Made by a program: the position numbers and the translations under genes
Part shown: piece by piece, positions 25,157 through 36,955 of the stretch
Numbering within the stretch: the stretch's first letter is position 1
How the letters are laid out: every line of letters starts with the position of its first letter
Origin: Planctomycetota bacterium
GTDB taxonomy: Bacteria > Planctomycetota > Planctomycetia > Pirellulales > Pirellulaceae
Length of the DNA: 64,000 bases
Assembly (NCBI GenBank): GCA_016872725.1
Contig: VGZC01000017.1
Location: 1-64,000 of the forward strand
Reading direction: 5' to 3'
The notes under the pieces: generated by a model
The model's input: only the letters and a program-made list of their open reading frames with translations
Told to the model about the DNA's origin: nothing
Database searches by the model: none

Positions 25157-26365
25157 ATGTCCGTTCAGCCACGCCGTCCGTCGGACCCTGGTCCGCCGCG
25201 GATGTCGACTCTTTCGGTCCACGCGGGCGAGGCCCGCGAGAAACCGGCCCACGCGATCACCGATCCGATCCTGTGCGCCTCGACGTTCACGTTCGCGAAC
25301 ACGCAGGCGGTTATCGACTACGTGGTCGAAAAACAGGAGCGGGGCGAGTACGGCCGATACGGCACGCCGACCGAAATGACCGTGGAACGCAAGCTCGCCG
25401 CGCTCGAAGGCGGCGGGGACGCCATCCTCTATTCGACGGGCATGGCGGCGATCGTCGGCCTGCTCATGGCGAAGCTCAACTCGGGCGATGAAGTCGTTTT
25501 CTTCGACGAGTGCTACCATCGCAGTCGCGAATTCTGCGTCAAACACCTGTCCCGGTTCGGCGTGGTGACTCGGCAGGTCAAAGTGTGCGATTACGATGCG
25601 ATGGCCGCGGCGATCAACGAAAACACCCGCCTGCTGATCAGCGAATCCCCGACGAATCCCCATTTGAGCGTCGTCGACCTGGAACGGTTCGCGGCGATCG
25701 GCCGGCAATACGCCGTCGAGACGCTGATCGACGCGACGCTCGCGACCCCCTACAATGTGCGGCCCCTCGCCTACGGCGTCGACTACGTGCTGCATTCGGC
25801 CACCAAATACCTCGGCGGCCATAACGACCTGCTTGCCGGCGTCATCATCGGCGATCGCGAGCGGCTCGAGCCGGTCCGAAAGCTCCGAGGCATCATGGGC
25901 GCGATCAACTCGGCCCACAACATCTACCTTCTCGAACGCGGGCTCAAGACGTTTGAACTCCGCATGCGCCGCCACAACGAGAACGGAATGGCGGTAGCAG
26001 AGTTCCTCGCGTCGCATCCGCGCGTTGAACGCGTGTTTTATCCCGGCCTTCCCTCGCACGCGTACCACGAAATCGCGAGCCGAACCATGCGGGGTTTTGG
26101 AGGCCTCATCACGTTCCAGGTGCGCGACGCCGACTGGCGCGCGACGGCAGCGATCGTCGATCGAGTGCGGGTCGCGCGGATCGCACCGAGTCTTGGAGGC
26201 GTCGAATCGTTGATCGAGCAACCGCTCGTGATGAGTTACTTCGAGGTGTCCCCCGAGGACCGCCGGCGGTTCGGCATCCATGACAACATGATCCGATTCT
26301 CGTGCGGAATCGAGAACGCCGAGGACCTGATCGCGGACCTCAAACAGGCTATCGAAGGGCGCTAG
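25157..26365 (+). CDS. Cys/Met-metabolism PLP enzyme, first copy
   Basis: 402 aa, the family's usual size. This fold-type I PLP family includes cystathionine gamma-synthase, cystathionine lyases and methionine gamma-lyase. The PLP lysine lies in VLHSATKYLGGH; YSTGMAAIVGLLMA is the phosphate-binding SxGxxA block; YGRYGTPT is the YxRxxNPT region, with Thr for Asn; and LGGVESLIEQP is the C-terminal substrate arginine-loop region. Sequence alone does not separate the reactions. The replacement in the NPT motif and the residues ECYHRSREF in place of the usual YGGT suggest a divergent substrate. It is followed after 19 bp by a second family member, so the pair may perform successive transsulfuration steps. 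Confidence 0.88.
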   Translation: MSVQPRRPSDPGPPRMSTLSVHAGEAREKPAHAITDPILCASTFTFANTQAVIDYVVEKQERGEYGRYGTPTEMTVERKLAALEGGGDAILYSTGMAAIVGLLMAKLNSGDEVVFFDECYHRSREFCVKHLSRFGVVTRQVKVCDYDAMAAAINENTRLLISESPTNPHLSVVDLERFAAIGRQYAVETLIDATLATPYNVRPLAYGVDYVLHSATKYLGGHNDLLAGVIIGDRERLEPVRKLRGIMGAINSAHNIYLLERGLKTFELRMRRHNENGMAVAEFLASHPRVERVFYPGLPSHAYHEIASRTMRGFGGLITFQVRDADWRATAAIVDRVRVARIAPSLGGVESLIEQPLVMSYFEVSPEDRRRFGIHDNMIRFSCGIENAEDLIADLKQAIEGR

Positions 26366-26384: not shown

Positions 26385-27581
26385 TTGGACTCCGACTTGG
26401 ACACGAGAAACGGCGGCGCCGCGCGCGCGGCGCCGCCCTATCAATTCCGCACGCGAGCCATCCATGTCGGGCAGGGGCCCGATCCGGCCACCGGGGCCGT
26501 CGTGCCGCCGATCCATGTCGCGTCGACCTACGTCCAACGCGCGGCTGGTGAATGGGGAGCGTTCGATTATTCCCGGAGCGGAAACCCGAGCCGCGCGAAT
26601 CTGGAACGGGCCGTCGCCGATCTCGAGTCGGGATGCGGCGGCCTCGCCTTCGCCAGCGGCATGGCGGCGATCCACTGCGCTATGATGCTCGTGAAATCGG
26701 GCGACCATGTCGTCGCCGGAACGGACATCTACGGAGGGACCTATCGGCTGCTCCACCGCGTGCTCGATCGATCGGGTGTCGACGTGACGCTCGCGCCGTC
26801 GACCGATTTGGCGGCGTTCGAACGGGCGATGCGCCCGACGACGCGCCTCGTCTGGATCGAATCCCCCGGCAATCCGCTCATGACGGTCACCGATGTCGGC
26901 GCGTGTGCCGAGATCGCCCATCGGCATGGAGCGCGGCTGGCCGTCGACAATACGTTCGCGACGCCCGTGCTGACGCGACCTCTCGAACGGGGCGCCGACA
27001 TCGTCATGCATTCGGCCACCAAATACCTCGGCGGCCACAGCGACGCGCTCGCGGGAATGCTCGCCGTCCGCGATCCCGAACTCTGGAAGGAACTCTACTT
27101 CTTCCAAAACGCGATCGGCGGTGTCATGGGGTCGCTCGAAACGTATCTCGTCGCCCGCGGACTCAAGACGCTCGAACTGCGCGTCCGCGAACAATGCCGG
27201 TCGGCGGCGCGCGTCGCCGAATGCCTCGCGGCCGATCGGCGCGTTCGTCGAGTCCTCTATCCGGGGCTGGCGACGCATGCGGGCCACGCTCTGGCCGCCC
27301 AACAGATGGATCGAGCGTTCGGCGCGATGCTCAGCTTCGAGGTCCACGGCGATCTGGAAAAAACAAAACGCGTCGCGGGCGCGACGCGCTTGTTTCAACT
27401 CGCCGTCAGCCTGGGGGCGGTCGAGTCGCTGATCGAACACCCGGCGTCGATGTCGCACGCCAGTTATCATCCCGACGACCGACGCGCCCACGGAATCTCC
27501 GACGGCCTGATCCGCATCTCCATCGGACTCGAAGATCCCGGCGACCTGTGCGCCGACCTCGATCAAGCGCTCGACGCGTGA
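26385..27581 (+). CDS. Cys/Met-metabolism PLP enzyme, second copy
   Basis: 398 aa. The start is TTG 26385, preceded by GGGGAGGA at 26373-26380; no ATG or GTG fits as well. The protein is canonical for the family: VPPIHVASTYVQ, YSRSGNPSRANLE, FASGMAAIHCAMML, DIYGGTYRLL, HSATKYLGGHSDALAG with the PLP lysine, and LGAVESLIEHPASMSH. It is therefore closer to standard cystathionine gamma-synthase/lyase than the upstream copy. The pair likely handles conversion between cysteine, cystathionine and homocysteine. The direction of the pathway cannot be decided without cysK/metA context, which is absent. Confidence 0.9.
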   Translation: MDSDLDTRNGGAARAAPPYQFRTRAIHVGQGPDPATGAVVPPIHVASTYVQRAAGEWGAFDYSRSGNPSRANLERAVADLESGCGGLAFASGMAAIHCAMMLVKSGDHVVAGTDIYGGTYRLLHRVLDRSGVDVTLAPSTDLAAFERAMRPTTRLVWIESPGNPLMTVTDVGACAEIAHRHGARLAVDNTFATPVLTRPLERGADIVMHSATKYLGGHSDALAGMLAVRDPELWKELYFFQNAIGGVMGSLETYLVARGLKTLELRVREQCRSAARVAECLAADRRVRRVLYPGLATHAGHALAAQQMDRAFGAMLSFEVHGDLEKTKRVAGATRLFQLAVSLGAVESLIEHPASMSHASYHPDDRRAHGISDGLIRISIGLEDPGDLCADLDQALDA

Positions 27582-29054: not shown

Positions 29055-30419
29055 ATGCTGAACTCGATTCGCCTCCCCATGCGTCACCCGAAAGGCCGTT
29101 GGGTGGTCGCGGCTATCGGCTCGGCCCTGTTGGCCCTCGCGCCCCACGGATCGGACGGCGTTTGGGGTCAGAGTCCGAGCGGGGCTCGGGTCGGGCCGCG
29201 CGGCGCGACGTCGCGTTCGCCGAATGCGGTTCCGGCTCAATCCCATAGCGCGTATCGAACGCGTGGTGTTCCGACGCGGAGCGGAACCGCGGCGAGCCGC
29301 GCGGCGCGGTCGGCATCTCGCGTCTATGCGGATCCGCCCGCCGACGCGGGCCACCCGGACGCGTCCGGGAGCGCGGCCCACGAACCCGCGCCGACGCCCC
29401 ACGCGGCACCGCGGGCGACGGCTCGCGAGGCGCCGCGCGGCGTTCATCGAGAACCGATCCCGGCGCCGGGCGCGGAGCCCGAGATGCTGTTCGAGGGCGA
29501 CGTCGAGGGCGAACCGTGGATGGGAGGTTATGGATCGGATCCCCGTTTCATCGAGGACGGCGCGTGCGGGTACGGCTGCTCGGGCCCGTGTGGTCATTAC
29601 GGTGGTTGCTTCCTTCCGTGTCCGTCGCTGTGTTTGCAGAATCTCGAAATGTTCGTCGGTTCGCACGGGTTCACGGGTCCGGCCAACCGAGGCGAGACGG
29701 CCAGTTTTGGATTCAGCGAGGGAGCGAATTGGGGCGCGCCCGTTCCGTGGATCGGACTGGGTGAATTGGGGATGCAATTCGGTTTTCGCACGGCGCAGAG
29801 CAATCTGTCGGGCGCGTCGTCCACCGATGAACAACGCCACCAGACATTCGTGACGGGCGGTCTGTTCCGCCGCTGCGACTGGGGTTTCCAGGGCGGTCTT
29901 GTCGTCGATTACCTTCATGAGACGTGGTACTTTGACGCGGACCTGATACAGCTTCGCGGCGAGTTGAGTTGGCTGTATCCATGTCGGCACGAGATCGGCT
30001 TCTGGTTTTCGACGAGCACACAGCGGGAATCGATCGTCTCGACGCTCGACATGAGCAACCAGCGGACGACGGCGAACGAGGTCCTGAGTCCGACCGATTT
30101 GTACGCCTTTTTCTACCGGCACCGGCTGGACGACTGCGGCTCGGCGAACGGCCGATTCTACGCGGGCTTCACAGGGAAGGGAGACGGGCTGATCGGCGCC
30201 GACCTGCAGACGCCATTCAACGACTGCTGGGCGATCCAATCGGGGTTCACCTATCTGATTCCCCAGGAATCGCGGGGTGACGACGGGCATGTCGAGGAAT
30301 CGTGGAACTTCGCGATCTCGGTCGCGTGGCGTCCGCGCGGCGGTTTCCTTTCGCAGAACTACTACCGGCCGCTCTTCAACGTCGCGGACAACGGCACGTT
30401 CATGGTGGACCGCGACTAG
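29055..30419 (+). CDS. Planctomycete outer-surface protein, DUF6666-like
   Basis: 454 aa from ATG 29055, with AGAGGA upstream and a leader (RWVVAAIGSALLALAPHGSDG). Residues 30-150 are Ala/Arg/Pro-rich. The C-terminal part (about 180-454) has alternating beta-strand patterns with aromatic ends, for example NLEMFVGSHGFTGPANRG, FGFSEGANWGAPVPWIGLGELGMQFGFR and GGLFRRCDWGFQGGLVVDYL, typical of the planctomycete DUF6666 family. The short strands and the terminal VAWRPRGGFLSQNYYRPLFNVADN suggest an outer-membrane barrel-like protein. Pairs of cysteines near residue 180 (CGYGCSGPCGHYGGC) may form disulphides. The stop overlaps the stop of the convergent arginine gene by 2 bp. Biological role unknown. 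Confidence 0.78.
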   Translation: MLNSIRLPMRHPKGRWVVAAIGSALLALAPHGSDGVWGQSPSGARVGPRGATSRSPNAVPAQSHSAYRTRGVPTRSGTAASRAARSASRVYADPPADAGHPDASGSAAHEPAPTPHAAPRATAREAPRGVHREPIPAPGAEPEMLFEGDVEGEPWMGGYGSDPRFIEDGACGYGCSGPCGHYGGCFLPCPSLCLQNLEMFVGSHGFTGPANRGETASFGFSEGANWGAPVPWIGLGELGMQFGFRTAQSNLSGASSTDEQRHQTFVTGGLFRRCDWGFQGGLVVDYLHETWYFDADLIQLRGELSWLYPCRHEIGFWFSTSTQRESIVSTLDMSNQRTTANEVLSPTDLYAFFYRHRLDDCGSANGRFYAGFTGKGDGLIGADLQTPFNDCWAIQSGFTYLIPQESRGDDGHVEESWNFAISVAWRPRGGFLSQNYYRPLFNVADNGTFMVDRD

Positions 30420-31237
30420 GTCCGCGTGGATTCCTCGCCGTCGAGCCGCAGCGTCAGGCATTTGGCGCTGCCGCCCGACTTGACGAATTCGTCCAGAGGC
30501 GTCTCGACCGCCTCAAAACCCTCGGCCCTCAAACGCGCGTGCAGCCGCGGACATCCCGTGTTCGTGACGACCGTCCTTCCCACGACGACCGCGTTGCACG
30601 CGAACCGCCGAGCCTCATCGGGTTCGACCTCGATCAGCGTCGGAATCTGTTCGACGAGCGCGGTCCGCGCGTAGGCGTCGAAGGCGGGCGGGAAATACAG
30701 CGCGGCGCTGGATGTGAGCGGGCAAAAGCACGTATCGAGGTGATAGTAATAGGGATCGACCAGTTCGAGCGGGATGACGCGGCGATCGATCCGCCGCGCG
30801 ATCCACTGGTGGGCCTGGATGTCGCTTCGGATCCGGTAGCCGGCGTAGAGCGTGTCGCCGCAGAACAGGGCGTCCCCGGCTCCTTCAAAAAAAAGCGTGT
30901 CGGGAAGCCGCTCGACCTCGAACCCGTTCGACGCGAACCACTCGGCGTCCACCGACTCCTCGCCCCGCCGTTCGGCATGGCGGAAACGCGAAACGAAGGC
31001 TCGTTCCCGAAAGACCAGCGCCGCGTTGGCCGTGAACACGAGGTCGGGAAGTCCGGGGACGGGATCGAGCAGGGCGAGTTCCGCGCCGGCCGCGCGCAGC
31101 GCGGCGCACAGCGCGCTCCATTGCTCGGCCGCGGCCTCGGCGTCGGCCGGCCGTTCACGGCGCATCCAGGGATTGATTTCGTAGTGGATTCCGAAATGGT
31201 CGGGTGGACACATCAGGATCCGTGCGGTCGGCGTCAT
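30416..31237 (-). CDS. Arginine dihydrolase, ArgZ/AgrE N-terminal type (guanidine-modifying superfamily)
   Basis: 273 aa. The sequence closely follows the N-terminal catalytic half of cyanobacterial ArgZ/AgrE, which converts arginine to ornithine, ammonia and CO2. Matching blocks include MCPPDHFGIHYEINPWM, FTANAALV, ERRGEESVDAEWF, YHLDTCFCPL and GGSAKCLTLRL. Catalytic Cys260 and His166 are present, as are Asn22 and Asn71, residues reported as important in ArgZ. Dimethylargininase and other amidinohydrolases are related alternatives, but Asn22 and the overall match favour ArgZ. The ornithine cyclodeaminase half, fused in cyanobacteria, is encoded by the separate gene just upstream (31327-32589). 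Confidence 0.87.
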   Translation of the reverse strand: MTPTARILMCPPDHFGIHYEINPWMRRERPADAEAAAEQWSALCAALRAAGAELALLDPVPGLPDLVFTANAALVFRERAFVSRFRHAERRGEESVDAEWFASNGFEVERLPDTLFFEGAGDALFCGDTLYAGYRIRSDIQAHQWIARRIDRRVIPLELVDPYYYHLDTCFCPLTSSAALYFPPAFDAYARTALVEQIPTLIEVEPDEARRFACNAVVVGRTVVTNTGCPRLHARLRAEGFEAVETPLDEFVKSGGSAKCLTLRLDGEESTRT

Positions 31238-31326
31238 GTTCCCAATCTCTCCGTGTGACACGCTCGATCGGCGCGTGGGATCGGGCCCATGCCAGTCGCG
31301 CGCTGTCGCGCCGGCCGAATCCGGCC

Positions 31327-32589
31327 TTACACGCGCACCCCATGAGGCGCGGCGGCACCCGGTCCCTTGACCAGTTCGTCGACCAGCGCCCGAAGGAACG
31401 GCTCGACGTCGGTCACAATGCCGAGCGTCTGGAAGGAGCCCCGATCGTTCAGTTTGATCACGGTCGACGGATTGATGTCGACGCAAACCACGCGCACCCA
31501 CGCGGGCAACAGATTTCCCACGGCGATCGAATGGAGCGTCGTGGCGACCATGAGGCAGAACCCGACGTTCGCGAGTTTTTGGCGCATGGCGGATTGCGCT
31601 TCGATGACGTCGGTCATGACCTCGGGGAGCGGACCGTCGTCCCGGATGCTGCCGGCGAGCAGGAAATCGACGTTGCGGCGCACGCACTCGTACATGATCC
31701 CCTGACGCAGCAGGCCGGTCGCGACCGCGCGGCGGATCCCGCCAACGCGCCGGATCCGATTGATCGTCCTCAGATGATGCTCGTGACCGGCCTCGACGAT
31801 GTCGCCCCGGTCGAGCCGCACGCCGAGGCTCGTTCCAAACAGGGCCTGTTCGATATCGTGGGTGGCCAGCGCGTTGCCCGCGAAGAGCGTCTGGACGTAG
31901 CCGGCTCGGATCAACTCGCAGAAATGACCGCCGCTGCCCGTGTGGATCACGGCGGGCCCCGCCACGACGAGAATCCGTTGACCCAGGTCCCGCGATCTCC
32001 GCATTTCATCGGCGACCTGGCGGATGGCGACCCCCTTGGGCTTCTCGGTCGACACCGCGCTGTTCATGAACTCGAACGCGTCGTTGCGTTCGCTGTCCCG
32101 CGTCTGCGGATGGGCGCGCACTCCGTGGTATCCGACCACGATCGCCTGTCCGCGCCCAACGTCGCTCATCGCGACGCACCGCGCCGCGCCGGTCGCCGGA
32201 TCGACGGCGATGCCGCAGTCCATCTCCTGATCGCGCACCTCGACCCACTCGCCCCGCCGCCGGACCTCCGTGCGTTGATTGGTCGTCGCATAAAACCCCT
32301 CGGGGAAAGCGCCGTCCCTATCGGCCGTTTCGAGCCGGCAGTCGTGCTCGACGATCGGCGCCGCGCCGTGGTCGCGGATATCGGCGAGGATCGCTTCGAG
32401 CTGGTCTTGGGACGGCGCGGTCACGGCGAGCAGCGCGTAGCTGGGATCCTTGCGCTCCTGGCCGACCGAGATCCGCTTGATCTGGAACGATCCTCCGGCC
32501 GCCGTAATGCAATCGAGGATCTTGGGCAGGATCAATCCGTCGATGATGTGGCCCGCGACCTCGACTTCCGAAACAAAGGGCGCAACCAT
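31327..32589 (-). CDS. TIGR00300/LOR-SDH family protein, ornithine cyclodeaminase-type (AgrE C-terminal half)
   Basis: 420 aa from ATG 32589, with AGAGGA 5 nt upstream. The protein begins with EVEVAGHIIDGLILPKILDC and contains VVAGPAVIHTGSGGHFCELI, NALATHDIEQALFGTSLGV, GHEHHLRTINRIRRVGGI, QGIMYECVRRNVDFLLAGS and VRVVCVDINPSTVIKL. These are the blocks of the TIGR00300 family, which forms the C-terminal half of cyanobacterial AgrE/ArgZ and includes an archaeal ornithine cyclodeaminase. Predicted reaction is ornithine to proline plus ammonia, using NAD. It ends 89 bp before the ArgZ-like gene on the same strand, so arginine to ornithine to proline could be run by the pair. The name lysine-oxoglutarate reductase in databases is historical. 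Confidence 0.87.
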   Translation of the reverse strand: MVAPFVSEVEVAGHIIDGLILPKILDCITAAGGSFQIKRISVGQERKDPSYALLAVTAPSQDQLEAILADIRDHGAAPIVEHDCRLETADRDGAFPEGFYATTNQRTEVRRRGEWVEVRDQEMDCGIAVDPATGAARCVAMSDVGRGQAIVVGYHGVRAHPQTRDSERNDAFEFMNSAVSTEKPKGVAIRQVADEMRRSRDLGQRILVVAGPAVIHTGSGGHFCELIRAGYVQTLFAGNALATHDIEQALFGTSLGVRLDRGDIVEAGHEHHLRTINRIRRVGGIRRAVATGLLRQGIMYECVRRNVDFLLAGSIRDDGPLPEVMTDVIEAQSAMRQKLANVGFCLMVATTLHSIAVGNLLPAWVRVVCVDINPSTVIKLNDRGSFQTLGIVTDVEPFLRALVDELVKGPGAAAPHGVRV

Positions 32590-32747: not shown

Positions 32748-32848
32748 ACGCTTCCGTGCGCGGTACGGGAATCGAGCCCCAAAGGGCTCCGGACGTTCCT
32801 TGGGTGTGAACGGCGGCGCGCGTCCGATGATCCGTGTTGAGACTTCGC

Positions 32849-34315
32849 ATGTCCCCATCCGATCGATTGCATTCCGAAGGTACGAGCGTCCCGAAAAAGG
32901 CGAAAAGCTCGTGGCAAACGCTCGCCGAACAACTCGGCATCGCACCCGCCGCGCCCGAGACGCCCCCCGAGACGGCTTCAACGCCCCTTGCACCGGCACC
33001 CGACACCGGCGCGCAACGATCGTCGACCGGAGAGCCGACCGTGCCGAGCGGCGCATCGGGTTTGTCGGGAGCGGCCCGATCCGGAGCGGACGATGGCGGG
33101 CCATCGGCCGGCCAATCTTCGGATGGGGGATTTTCGAGCTCGCCCGACGGCGGCCTCGCGCCCGAGTCGTCGCCTCACGTCGCGCCGGCAGCGTCGAGCG
33201 GCCCTCGCATCTATCCGTCCGGCAAGACCAAGCCCGCGGGAAAAGGCAAACCCAACTGGAACGCACTCGCCCAATTCCTCGGCCTCCGCGTTCCGACCGA
33301 ACGCATCGAAATCGCATCCGGCCCCCAGCCCGCCACTCCGACCGAGACCTTCCAGGGATTCCGCCCGCCCCAACACGAACCCGTTCCGCCTCCCGAACCG
33401 GAATCGGCCCCGGTTTCGGAGGAACCGGTGTCCGCGGAGCTGCCACGATCGGACGCGCGCGACGCTTCCGAACCCGATGCGCGGACTCGAACCGAATCCG
33501 AGCCGCGAAATCCCAGGGAACCGTGGGGATCGGCGCCGCGCGGAAAACGGGGCGGGCCGCGAGGCCAAGACCGAGGCCGCGACACGCGCCGGACATCCCG
33601 CGAACCGTCCGATGATTCGTTCGAGGCCGGTGAGCGAACTGTGCGCGGCGACGCCGAGCCCGACTGGCGGCGTCATGCGGACGACGCTTTCGAAATCGGA
33701 CCGGCCCCCGAACGCGACCGGGCCGATGAACGGGAGCCCGGTGACGTCGAGCGCGACGACGGGACGCGGAGCGAACTCGCCGATTCCGATGCCAGCGACG
33801 GCGGTCGGAAGCGGCGTCGACGACGGCGACGGGGTCGTCGAGGCGGGCGCGCGGGCGAAGGCGAAACGACCCGCGACGCGCGCGATGCAACGAGCCCATC
33901 CGAGGACAACGAGTTCGATGGCGATACGGCCCGCCGCGCGCAGCGCCGTGCGCCCATCGATTCGATTGACGCCGATGTGTTCGAATCGGTCGGGTCCGAC
34001 GTCGAGCCGTCGGAGGACGACGACGTCGCGTCCGACGAATCACGCGATTTCGCCTACGGCGGCTTCGGCAAGGGCCGGGACGCGCGTGGGGGCCGCAAGG
34101 CCGAACGCAGGACGCCCGAACCGTTCGATTCGGAGGACGACTCCGAGATCGCCTCCGACCTCGACGACGATTCCGAGCATGATGACGAAGTTCGTCCCAA
34201 GCACACGAAGATCCCCACATGGGAGCAAGCGGTTCGCGTGATCATCGAAACGAACACGGCCAACCGAGCGAAATCAACACCCCATGCGAATCGCGGCCGG
34301 GGACGCAGGAGGTAG
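32849..34315 (+). CDS. Disordered, highly charged planctomycete protein with short conserved motifs
   Basis: 488 aa from ATG 32849. Most of the chain is low complexity: Pro/Glu/Ser-rich, then Arg/Asp/Glu-rich, with a run of basic residues (RKRRRRRRRG) near residue 330. Two short related helical motifs stand out: SWQTLAEQLGI near residue 22 and NWNALAQFLGL near 133. The C-terminus has PTWEQAVRVIIETN followed by ANRGRGRRR. The repeated W-x2-LA-x2-LG motif and the RGG-like tail recall RNA-associated scaffold proteins, but I do not recognise a characterised family. No structured catalytic domain was found. A good promoter lies upstream. Confidence 0.72.
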   Translation: MSPSDRLHSEGTSVPKKAKSSWQTLAEQLGIAPAAPETPPETASTPLAPAPDTGAQRSSTGEPTVPSGASGLSGAARSGADDGGPSAGQSSDGGFSSSPDGGLAPESSPHVAPAASSGPRIYPSGKTKPAGKGKPNWNALAQFLGLRVPTERIEIASGPQPATPTETFQGFRPPQHEPVPPPEPESAPVSEEPVSAELPRSDARDASEPDARTRTESEPRNPREPWGSAPRGKRGGPRGQDRGRDTRRTSREPSDDSFEAGERTVRGDAEPDWRRHADDAFEIGPAPERDRADEREPGDVERDDGTRSELADSDASDGGRKRRRRRRRGRRGGRAGEGETTRDARDATSPSEDNEFDGDTARRAQRRAPIDSIDADVFESVGSDVEPSEDDDVASDESRDFAYGGFGKGRDARGGRKAERRTPEPFDSEDDSEIASDLDDDSEHDDEVRPKHTKIPTWEQAVRVIIETNTANRAKSTPHANRGRGRRR

Positions 34316-34816
34316 GCGGCCCACCCTCCCAGGCAACCGCGCGATGCGACGCACCCGGTTTGGATCCCGGGTCAAACGGGGCATCGGCGCGGCGCGATGA
34401 TCGGGCCCGCTGGAACCGCAAATACACGGAATGCCGACTCGATCACGACGCGCCTTCCACGCTCGCCCTCGACGCGCCTCGGTACCTGCCCCGTCCGGCC
34501 GCGCACTCGATGTCGCCGGAGGTGTCCTCAGACCATTCCGTGGACGCGAACGCCGACTTGCGGTAGAAAACGGTGACTCGGCGAATCACAATGAACCAAG
34601 CCTCGGTCGGGCTCCGTTCATTCCCCATGTTCCCGCCGTGATTCCCACCTCGGCGGAACGACCATCGCTCCGATCGAGCCCAAACCCCCTCCAAATGGGG
34701 GAGGCTGCCGTTTTGGCCGGACTTTCCAACAGGATTTGGGGGTTGGCAAGCGGGAGGCGAGCGATCTTCGTGGAACTTTCCCTGTCCGACCTGCGTCCGA
34801 TAGCTGTGGAGCCGAT
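34316..34816. other. Intergenic region upstream of the ECF sigma gene
   Basis: 501 bp. The only recognised element is the ECF-type promoter at 34772-34797. A short GC inverted repeat near 34685-34702 is weak. Open frames in this stretch have no protein-like features. Confidence 0.5.
34772..34797 (+). promoter_or_regulatory. ECF-sigma-type promoter (GGAACTT / CGTC)
   Basis: GGAACTT at 34772-34778 and CGTC at 34794-34797 have 17 bp between GGAAC and CGTC, the classic ECF pattern. It lies directly before the sigma gene, as expected for autoregulation. The leader would be only about 13 nt and contains the GGAG ribosome binding site. Confidence 0.55.
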
Positions 34817-35383
34817 GTGAAGGACGACTTCGAGCTGATCGACCATACGCTTGCCGGTGACCGGCGCGCGTTTGGAGAACTGGTCACGCGATACCAAGAC
34901 CGTCTTTTCACGGCGATGGTCTACGTGGCGGGTTCGCCTAGTGACGCGGAGGACGTACTGCAGGACGCGTTTATTCAGGCCTATTTGAAGCTTCGCACGT
35001 TCCAGCGGACAAGTGGTTTTTATACCTGGATTTATCGAATCGCATTCAATCTGGCGGTCAGTCGGCGGCGGCGGCGAAAGCCCGAGGTTTCGGTGGAAGA
35101 GGCTCGTGAGCGCGGTGGGGCCGAACCGATCTGTGGTCAGATGGGAGCGAGTGAACGGATCGAGCGGGACGAGGGGGTCGAGCGGGTACGTACGGCGATG
35201 AGCCGACTCGGCGAAGAGCATCGGGCCATTTTGGTGCTCCGCGAGATCGAGGGCTGCTGTTACGAACAGATCGCGGACGTGTTGCAGTTGCCGGTCGGAA
35301 CCGTGCGCAGCCGCATCCACCGCGCCCGAGCTCAGCTCCGCGAGATCCTGGTCGAAGAACTGCGCGAACCATCGGACATCTGA
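34817..35383 (+). CDS. ECF-family RNA polymerase sigma factor
   Basis: 188 aa from GTG 34817, with GGAG 5 nt upstream. Region 2 is clear (FGELVTRYQDRLFTAMVYVAGSPSDAEDVLQDAFIQAYLKL), followed by the acidic linker and region 4 (LGEEHRAILVLREIEGCCYEQIADVLQLPVGTVRSRIHRARAQLRE). Length and organisation are standard for ECF sigma factors. The following gene is the probable anti-sigma factor, 99 bp downstream. An ECF-type promoter directly upstream suggests self-activation. Regulon unknown; the lipoprotein and giant beta-helix genes downstream are only candidates. Confidence 0.93.
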   Translation: MKDDFELIDHTLAGDRRAFGELVTRYQDRLFTAMVYVAGSPSDAEDVLQDAFIQAYLKLRTFQRTSGFYTWIYRIAFNLAVSRRRRRKPEVSVEEARERGGAEPICGQMGASERIERDEGVERVRTAMSRLGEEHRAILVLREIEGCCYEQIADVLQLPVGTVRSRIHRARAQLREILVEELREPSDI

Positions 35384-35482
35384 GTTTTCGGTTTTCGATT
35401 TTCGGTTCGGGTTGAGGTGGAGTCGGAAGACGGTTGGGGAAGACCGTCGGACGTTCAGGGACGGAAAACGGTAAGTGGACGT

Positions 35483-36955
35483 ATGGCCAACGAAGATCGA
35501 ATCCGAGAGCTGATCAGCGCGTACGTGGATGACGCGCTGAGCCCGGACGAGCGGGCGTACGTCCAAGACCGTTTGGATCGGGACGTCGAGCTCCGTGATT
35601 ACTGCGGCGAATTGCGGGCGGTCCGGGATGCGATCGCCGAGCTCCCGCGATGGAGTGCGCCGGCGGGATGTGCCGAGTCGATCCTTGAGCGCATTGCCCG
35701 TCTTCCCGCCGAGGTGCATCTGGACAGTCGGACGGAACGCGATGGTGCCGGGATTGGATTGGGATTCGGGGTCGATTCGCGCGACGGGACGAACCGGGCG
35801 AGGTCCTCGACGGCGCCGGCTCGGCGGCGCCGCGTGATCCGCGTCGTGGCGTGGGTGGCGACGGCGGCCGCCGCCGTTCTGGTGGCCGTGCTGGCGTGGC
35901 CCGGCCGAACTCGATCGAAGCCGGGCGAGCCATCAATGGCCGAGCGGTCGGAGCGGGACTCGGCGCCGGGAACGACCGATGGAGACCCGTCATCGGTCGT
36001 GCGCAACGAGTCATCGACGACCGGCGATAACGGCGGTTCGAGTCGTATCGCGCCGGACGGCCGGTCCGCGGTGGGCACTCCGGCGGCTGCCGCCGACGGC
36101 GCTCGGTTCCCGGAGCGTCACTCCGACATCGCGGCGAAAGGGCCTTCCGACAAACCGACCGTCCCCATGCATCCGGTCGCCTCGAACGGCGGCGGAGCCT
36201 CGGGGACGAACCGGGAAGCGCGTTCCCCGGTCGCGCCCCCCGCCGATGCGATGCCGGCCGTTCCGTTCATCGCCATGGTCGTGGACGTCGTACTGACTCA
36301 AGAGGGAATCGACGAGAACATCTTTGAAGACGCGTTGCGGCGGGTCGATATCCCGTGGAAGAACGCGATCGAAGTCGACGCGACGTTCGAGCGATCGATC
36401 TTGGCGCAGCGCGTATTCGGCGCGTTGGGTCCCGAGGACTTGCCGATTCCCGCGGACGGCGCGGACGGCCGGAAGGCGGACCATTTGCAATTGGTCTTCC
36501 TGGTGGCCCGGGGTCGGCAATTCGACAACTTGATTCGGGATATCTATGATCGCCGCGTATCGGGCGACGTGGCCGCCGTTCGGTTGGACATCTCGTTCGG
36601 AACGAACGACAGCGCGTTGTTCTCGCGCATGGAAAAACTCGCGAGGGAGACGCCCGATGTTCCGTCATCCGAAGTCAGCGCGCATCCGGTCGTGATGGCG
36701 GACGCCATGCGTACGCGGCTTCAATCGGCCTTGTTGTCGGCGCGCGCGAAGGACGGTCCCGATCCGGCGCTGCCTGACCCGACGGTTCGGAACGGGGCCG
36801 ACGGTGTTCCCGTCCTTCCCGAGGGCGGCGCGGAATCCGTGCTGGCGATGGAGCGTGAACAGTTCGACGTGCTGGTCGTCCTGCGTTCCGAGTCGACGGC
36901 CCGAGGCCAAGAACCCAAAGAACCCAAAGAACCCAAAGGCTCGACGGGTCGTTAA
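35483..36955 (+). CDS. Probable membrane anti-sigma factor
   Basis: 490 aa from ATG 35483. Residues 1-75 resemble the N-terminal anti-sigma module: ELISAYVDDALSPDERAYVQDRLD and LRDYCGELRAVRDAIAEL, the typical anti-sigma helix pattern, but without the HxxxCxxC zinc motif. One membrane helix is at about 135-155 (VIRVVAWVATAAAAVLVAVLAW). The extracytoplasmic part is low complexity to about 275, then folded (VPFIAMVVDVVLTQEGIDENIFEDALRRVDI and HLQLVFLVARGRQFDNLIRD). Position directly after an ECF sigma gene supports the call. The C-terminus ends in EPKEPKEPKG, encoded by a 9-bp repeat. The signal sensed is unknown. Confidence 0.82.
   Translation: MANEDRIRELISAYVDDALSPDERAYVQDRLDRDVELRDYCGELRAVRDAIAELPRWSAPAGCAESILERIARLPAEVHLDSRTERDGAGIGLGFGVDSRDGTNRARSSTAPARRRRVIRVVAWVATAAAAVLVAVLAWPGRTRSKPGEPSMAERSERDSAPGTTDGDPSSVVRNESSTTGDNGGSSRIAPDGRSAVGTPAAAADGARFPERHSDIAAKGPSDKPTVPMHPVASNGGGASGTNREARSPVAPPADAMPAVPFIAMVVDVVLTQEGIDENIFEDALRRVDIPWKNAIEVDATFERSILAQRVFGALGPEDLPIPADGADGRKADHLQLVFLVARGRQFDNLIRDIYDRRVSGDVAAVRLDISFGTNDSALFSRMEKLARETPDVPSSEVSAHPVVMADAMRTRLQSALLSARAKDGPDPALPDPTVRNGADGVPVLPEGGAESVLAMEREQFDVLVVLRSESTARGQEPKEPKEPKGSTGR
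36911..36938. repeat. 9-bp in-frame repeat at the anti-sigma 3' end
   Basis: Three copies of GAACCCAAA encode Glu-Pro-Lys near the C-terminus of the anti-sigma factor. They sit about 20 bp before its stop codon. Confidence 0.85.

Follow-up and report, generated by a model that had tools for sequence, protein, structure and literature searches.

The closest described systems are the cyanobacterial enzymes ArgZ (Synechocystis Sll1336) and AgrE (Anabaena Alr4995), represented by the NCBIfam model NF052231, in which an N-terminal arginine dihydrolase (ADH) half and a C-terminal ornithine cyclodeaminase (OCD) half are joined in a single polypeptide. In cyanobacteria, the AgrE-PutA route converts arginine to proline with release of one CO2 and three ammonium for each arginine (PMC8262935), and a second study places ArgZ/AgrE-type bifunctional proteins in a cluster with a larger group of uncharacterised proteins (PMC11659421). 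Archaeal TIGR00300 proteins (M. maripaludis 3c2q, MJ1480) are free-standing OCDs. The locus described here lies in a 64,000-nucleotide stretch of DNA from a Planctomycetota bacterium of the family Pirellulaceae (assembly GCA_016872725.1, contig VGZC01000017.1, positions 1 to 64,000), which is termed the window below, and consists of separate OCD and ADH genes:

31327..32589, minus strand: OCD gene (protein P0002), first of the pair, 420 amino acids, ATG start
31238..31326, minus strand: gap from the OCD stop to the ADH start, 89 bp, taken from the sequence
30416..31237, minus strand: ADH gene (protein P0001), second of the pair, 273 amino acids, ATG start

Transcription runs from the OCD gene to the ADH gene. 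The initial annotation had described two adjacent genes 89 bp apart with the cyclodeaminase first, homologous to the two halves of ArgZ/AgrE; the coordinates agree with this, and the proteins give full-length matches to ArgZ, AgrE and TIGR00300. The pair has both catalytic halves of ArgZ/AgrE and the same predicted reactions, but it comprises two genes in reversed order with no linker, and its OCD comes from another deep branch of the family. With 89 bp between its genes it falls outside the one-polypeptide definition of a bifunctional ArgZ (NF052231). No report of a split, reversed OCD-ADH pair was found among the literature matches listed. Gene identity, active-site residues, co-occurrence, gene order, trees and the PutA context together make it quite probable that the pair is a two-gene arginine-catabolic unit, and from these the activities, substrates, cotranscription and direction of flux are inferred. 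In the proposed mechanism, the ADH would convert arginine to ornithine, CO2 and two ammonia, the OCD would convert ornithine to proline with release of a third ammonia, and a PutA-type enzyme encoded elsewhere in the genome would convert proline to glutamate. The cyanobacterial AgrE-PutA route would in this way be carried out by separate proteins. The two genes have been retained together in genomes of planctomycetes and other phyla, in many cases but not in all as direct neighbours, and the cyanobacterial fusion would combine the same ADH lineage with a different OCD lineage, making the window's pair a parallel arrangement.

The OCD protein scores 523.2 bits against TIGR00300 (NCBIfam cut-off 410.8), over profile positions 4-404 of 407, and contains the Pfam domains PF04455, PF21571 and PF21570 in that order. 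Among sequences of solved structures, it matches the C-terminal halves of AgrE (5.4e-113) and ArgZ (1.2e-108) and M. maripaludis 3c2q (1.7e-98). On these matches P0002 is a full-length TIGR00300-family ornithine cyclodeaminase, predicted to form proline from ornithine. The C-terminal part of the OCD model (predicted local distance difference test score 82.6) appears to have the fold of deoxyhypusine synthase (Z 17.6, root-mean-square deviation 3.4-3.5 over 222 residues, 10-14% identity). Deoxyhypusine synthase catalyses a different reaction, and the window's OCD has extra N-terminal domains; the modelled common fold shows no function for the OCD.

The ADH protein matches ArgZ (6jv0) at 2.9e-77 and AgrE (6lrf) at 5e-72, and its next solved relative is a dimethylarginine dimethylaminohydrolase (DDAH; 3rhy) at 5.8e-13. 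Alignment to AgrE places N22, N71, E118, D122, H166 (AgrE 168) and C260 (AgrE 264) in P0001, so that AgrE residues N22, N71, E118, H168 and C264 are all kept and the assignment of Asn22, Asn71, His166 and Cys260 in the initial annotation was right. These positions presumably have the catalytic roles of the ArgZ/AgrE active site; Asn and Cys changes appear in the PDB variants matched by P0001. As marks of ArgZ the residues hold in part: they set P0001 apart from human DDAH1 and from a DDAH-like protein of Bacillus, both with Asp at the Asn71 position, but they are common to actinobacterial proteins considered below. In a 54-row ADH tree (bootstrap/Shimodaira-Hasegawa-like approximate likelihood-ratio test, SH-aLRT), from which four same-class genomes and the truncated locus L090 were left out, a single clade (99/97) unites the fused ADHs, themselves a clade (100/96), with linked ADHs and unlinked ones of the same class. 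Three annotated dimethylargininases stand apart (100/99), as do 15 distant paralogues. A quick 66-row tree adds two Glycomyces homologues and ten more unlinked ADHs (12 of 21 further ADHs extracted were used, and the long-branch row L022_G049 was dropped); the main clade has an SH-aLRT of 92, linked and unlinked planctomycete ADHs are intermixed, and the two unannotated Glycomyces proteins fall with the dimethylargininase-annotated proteins in a separate clade. By sequence and by this grouping, P0001 is a homologue of the arginine dihydrolase domain of ArgZ/AgrE, and the grouping with dimethylargininases that the initial annotation had named as a refuting result is not seen. The distant ADH-like paralogues of other planctomycete genomes (L018-L021, L023-L032) keep Asn22, Asn71, His168 and Cys264 and have an SGGSVFC-like C-terminal motif in place of a GGSAKC-like one.

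The distribution of the two genes beyond the phylum is drawn from a genome scan with an OCD alignment, in which the best 80 loci are those closest to P0002 and not a census. A same-strand ADH gene lies downstream of the OCD gene in 23 of these loci, a lower bound as some loci stop near the OCD gene, and upstream in none. The linked loci include 14 from Planctomycetota, two from Deltaproteobacteria by title (Myxococcota by treekit), two from Omnitrophota and one each from Nitrospirota, Armatimonadota and Verrucomicrobiota, giving at least six phyla in all; with start codons chosen by the analyst, their OCD and ADH genes overlap by up to 4 bases or lie up to 475 bp apart. The OCD-then-ADH arrangement is thus no local relic and not special to planctomycetes. 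For 50 of the 57 genomes with non-adjacent loci, the ADH was sought elsewhere in the genome, and a match of at least 230 bits is present in 20 of 24 planctomycetes (one with an in-frame TGA, one split over contigs). The same search at this threshold found no ADH in five archaea or five Chloroflexi with TIGR00300; the archaeal OCDs lie on the same side of the tree as the window's OCD and differ from it in this respect.

Within the phylum, the sample comprises 195 genomes, of which 31 have a TIGR00300 match over the cut-off. Twelve further genomes with one match of 385 to 406 bits (10 of the 12 lacking the first 40 or more profile positions) are counted with these, giving 43 OCD genomes; fragments in G002 and G180 are scored as absent. 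An ADH of at least 267 bits occurs in 15 genomes, all of them among the 43, and the next best score is 200 bits. Of the 27 genomes in the window's class, 13 have both genes, 13 have neither and one (G180) has fragments of both; both genes are absent from all five further genomes of the window's family. Among eight single-contig class genomes with both genes, only G078 has them adjacent, in the order OCD-ADH; in the other seven the distance between them is about 2 Mb or more. The fused form is found in two planctomycete genomes outside the class, G057 (770 amino acids) and G137 (733 amino acids), in one frame each and in the cyanobacterial order. An ADH with an in-frame TGA is present in the Phycisphaerae genome of L096 (G238:C129:56507-57307); this and the ADH and OCD fragments of G180 look as if the pathway were being lost.

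The OCD trees separate the window's protein from the fused enzymes. All OCD and ADH trees are unrooted, and the cyanobacterial fusions are represented by two PDB proteins. OCD sequences were extracted from 74 of the 80 loci (four truncated loci, L116 and L137 were left out). The 77-row tree uses 57 of these 74, 17 of 29 phylum OCDs, P0002 and the two PDB halves, the 48-row tree is a subset of the 77 rows, and the 93-row tree holds 73 of the 74 loci, the truncated L112 being left out. The fused OCDs (two cyanobacterial, two planctomycete) form one clade and share their side of the branch with nine OCDs, of which one comes from a Terriglobia genome and the other eight from the planctomycete phylum. 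Archaeal, actinobacterial and other bacterial OCDs accompany the window's OCD on the opposite side. The branch between them has support of 100/96 (48 rows), 97 (93 rows) and 98 (77 rows). The placement of the window's OCD in an all-linked nine-row clade in the 48- and 77-row trees is an effect of row sampling: with 16 rows restored it belongs to a mixed 14-row group (99; 93-row tree), nine linked and five with the ADH elsewhere in the genome, and its split from the fused OCDs holds. A constraint that groups the fused OCDs with the nine linked neighbours of the window's OCD lowers the log-likelihood by 104 and is rejected (approximately unbiased test p-AU 0.003) in a quick-tree test for a group picked after the tree was seen.

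Tree distances of the two proteins were also compared, over 23 linked pairs (the window, G078 and 21 of the 23 linked loci) and four fused proteins. Linked ADH and OCD distances correlate (23 pairs, r 0.80, 0 of 2000 permutations as high), part of which organism kinship alone can cause. The ratio of OCD to ADH distance is 1.51 from linked to fused forms and 1.13 among linked forms; from the ADH of the fusion a closer OCD would be expected, and the difference speaks for separate recruitment or partner replacement. Because its OCD belongs to a different branch of the family, the pair does not appear to be a broken-up cyanobacterial gene, and as judged from the sequences it is probably neither the direct precursor nor a breakage product of the fusion.

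The metabolic setting is consistent with arginine breakdown. A full PutA gene (proline dehydrogenase plus aldehyde dehydrogenase) lies divergently beside the pair at one Nitrospirota and two Omnitrophota loci (L100:694-3609(-), L103:1948-4860(-), L111:1505-4711(-)), and tblastn finds PutA in three of the 23 linked loci and none of the other 57. An aldehyde dehydrogenase takes the place of PutA beside the pair at L102 (Deltaproteobacteria), and a divergent PutA or aldehyde dehydrogenase, at these four loci, is the only neighbour gene common to several pair loci; the unlinked locus L137 also has an aldehyde dehydrogenase. In the window's genome, a 1259-amino-acid PutA-like frame on another contig has a proline dehydrogenase match (2.9e-57) and, in its aldehyde dehydrogenase part, a weak match to the ProA model (3.4e-4). 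The arginine-to-ornithine-to-proline route that the initial annotation had suggested for planctomycetes is, with this context, the best reading of the sequence evidence. The window's genome also has ProA and ProC over their cut-offs, so its OCD is not its only predicted source of proline. ProC is over its cut-off in 15 of 15 phylum genomes with ADH and OCD vs 5 of 28 in which the OCD occurs without this ADH (p 1e-7), a contrast strongly structured by class, as all 27 class genomes have ProC. Of the 43 OCD genomes, 23 have no ProC over the cut-off, and 22 of those 23 also have no ProA, which suggests that the OCD alone replaces glutamate-derived proline synthesis there. In the reading given to this pattern, the OCD by itself substitutes for ProC in certain lineages, and together with the ADH it serves arginine breakdown.

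Several observations weigh against the catabolic unit. The best NCBIfam matches of P0001 are to ArgZ models but below their cut-offs (293.7 of 1025 bits and 289.9 of 450 bits, the latter for the arginine dihydrolase model NF052232), and the dimethylargininase model NF045659 is likewise missed (263.6 of 300 bits), so that its name is not secured by NCBIfam; the NF052232 cut-off is passed by none of the 195 phylum genomes, fused planctomycete proteins included. The same active-site residues, Asn71 included, occur in three actinobacterial proteins annotated as dimethylargininase, and the residues alone therefore do not settle the substrate of P0001. Outside the planctomycetes, an ADH of at least 230 bits is present in only one of 26 non-adjacent OCD genomes. 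The adjacency label changes 14 times on the 93-row OCD tree, at least seven of these changes being forced by starred branches, and adjacency has thus often been lost or gained. A sigma-70 scan gives no promoter on the coding strand of the pair, its single site being on the plus strand. Proline dehydrogenase is found in 26 of the 27 class genomes, with or without the pair, and so fits the route without discriminating.

Three other explanations may be set against these data. The initial annotation saw in the pair a pre-fusion or post-fission state of the cyanobacterial enzyme, an origin to which the homology of both halves to the fusion and the single clade of ADH halves (99/97) lend some weight, and unrooted trees can accommodate an ancient shared pair from which other OCD lineages later lost the ADH. 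The phylogeny of the two halves diverges on this point, as the ADH groups with the fusions and the OCD sits on the archaeal side, with the fused OCDs and nine others across the 100/96 (97) branch. Together with the p-AU of 0.003 (for a group named after seeing the tree), the 1.51 to 1.13 contrast in distance ratios and the reversed gene order, this leaves ancestry or fission unlikely, and separate recruitment or partner replacement fits better. Slightly less probable still is that P0001 is a dimethylargininase or other guanidine hydrolase whose function is unrelated to the adjoining OCD: its NF045659 score is close below that of the ArgZ domain model and the active-site residues are common to both, but it falls in a different clade from the three annotated proteins and the two Glycomyces homologues, is 50.2% identical to ArgZ vs 43.1% to the dimethylargininase-annotated Kitasatospora protein, has Asn71 where human DDAH1 has Asp, and recurs next to an OCD in at least six phyla.

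Also improbable, and the least favoured of the three, is a role of the OCD in making proline from ornithine, as in archaea and ProC-less planctomycetes, with the ADH acting only as a supplier of ornithine. All five archaea and all five Chloroflexi tested do have TIGR00300 but not this ADH, and ProC over the cut-off is missing in 23 of the 28 OCD-bearing planctomycete genomes without this ADH; against this, ProA and ProC are over their cut-offs in the window's genome and all 15 phylum genomes with ADH and OCD, and PutA lies beside the pair at three loci. The two-gene arginine-catabolic unit is preferred to all three.

The cofactor of the OCD is a separate question, as the NCBIfam name of TIGR00300 describes the family as nickel-pincer-nucleotide-dependent. 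In the phylum sample, LarC, a gene of the nickel-pincer cofactor, is found in 43 of 43 OCD genomes vs 108 of 152 others, which agrees with that name, and the OCD in none of 44 LarC-negative genomes; among 108 Lar_N-negative genomes, LarC is present in 23 of 23 with the OCD vs 52 of 85 without. This link is a correlation among related genomes, for which p-values are only a guide. LarB (NF033503) is over its cut-off in 30 of 30 genomes of the class and f39, and the LarE-like TIGR00268 in 29 of 30 (the exception, G156, has OCD and LarC); both also pass in three LarC-less genomes and so do not discriminate. The window's genome has two low-scoring Lar_N (LarA) matches over the Pfam cut-off (1.2e-9 and 3.7e-9), and Lar_N occurs in all 13 class genomes with the pair, which rules out an argument from LarA-free genomes for this class; LarC without Lar_N is seen in the two planctomycete genomes that carry the fused form. 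According to one study, larB, larE and larC occur in the absence of larA in about 15% of genomes; most cyanobacteria have no LarA-like genes and probably produce the cofactor for use by a protein not yet identified (PMC11796402). None of the papers searched links TIGR00300 with the nickel-pincer nucleotide. Against nickel-pincer dependence stand an AgrE structure with ornithine and NAD+ (title of 6lrg) and the C-terminal deoxyhypusine synthase fold of the OCD, since deoxyhypusine synthase has a solved structure with NAD (title of 1dhs). LarA is not among the 50 rows listed in the structure comparison, which argues neither way. A tentative and rather doubtful extension would be a multi-phylum two-gene unit with a nickel-pincer-nucleotide OCD, a cyanobacterial fusion that arose independently by joining the same ADH to a second OCD lineage, and an OCD family that is the missing cofactor user in those cyanobacteria and planctomycetes that make the cofactor but have no LarA.

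In the window, the unit comprises the two genes only; both adjoining genes are on the plus strand, with no same-strand partner directly beside the pair, and the 3' end of the convergent one overlaps the ADH gene by 4 bases:

29058..30419, plus strand: DUF6666 gene, convergent neighbour outside the unit, Pfam PF20371 at 2.3e-93
32834..34315, plus strand: open frame upstream of the OCD gene, divergent neighbour outside the unit, no Pfam match

P0001 and P0002 have one match each in their own 5.24-Mb genome (E <= 0.001). Further out, tandem genes for Cys/Met-metabolism pyridoxal phosphate enzymes lie at 25157-26365(+) and 26385-27581(+), with 19 bp between them as called, and a gene for an extracytoplasmic function (ECF)-type sigma factor at 34736-35383(+) is followed by an anti-sigma-factor-like gene at 35417-36955(+) with a zf-HC2 match.

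The actinobacterial genes annotated as dimethylargininase that carry the ArgZ residue set including Asn71 (L062:2968-3789(+), L063:2974-3798(+), L064:3004-3777(+)) encode proteins of the NF045659 type, about 40-43% identical to P0001 with the same active-site residues; they form a clade separate from P0001, and no OCD gene is annotated in the three stretches around them. Given this arginine dihydrolase residue set, their names may be wrong, and the comparison flags a possible misnaming. By homology and gene order, the pair extends a catabolic route of cyanobacteria into the planctomycetes and five or more other phyla. It suggests that fusion of this two-step pairing into a single protein was confined to certain lineages and involved a different OCD. 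The separate genes let each activity be assayed alone, and the co-occurrence of OCD and LarC makes the question of which protein may use the nickel-pincer cofactor in LarA-less bacteria testable.

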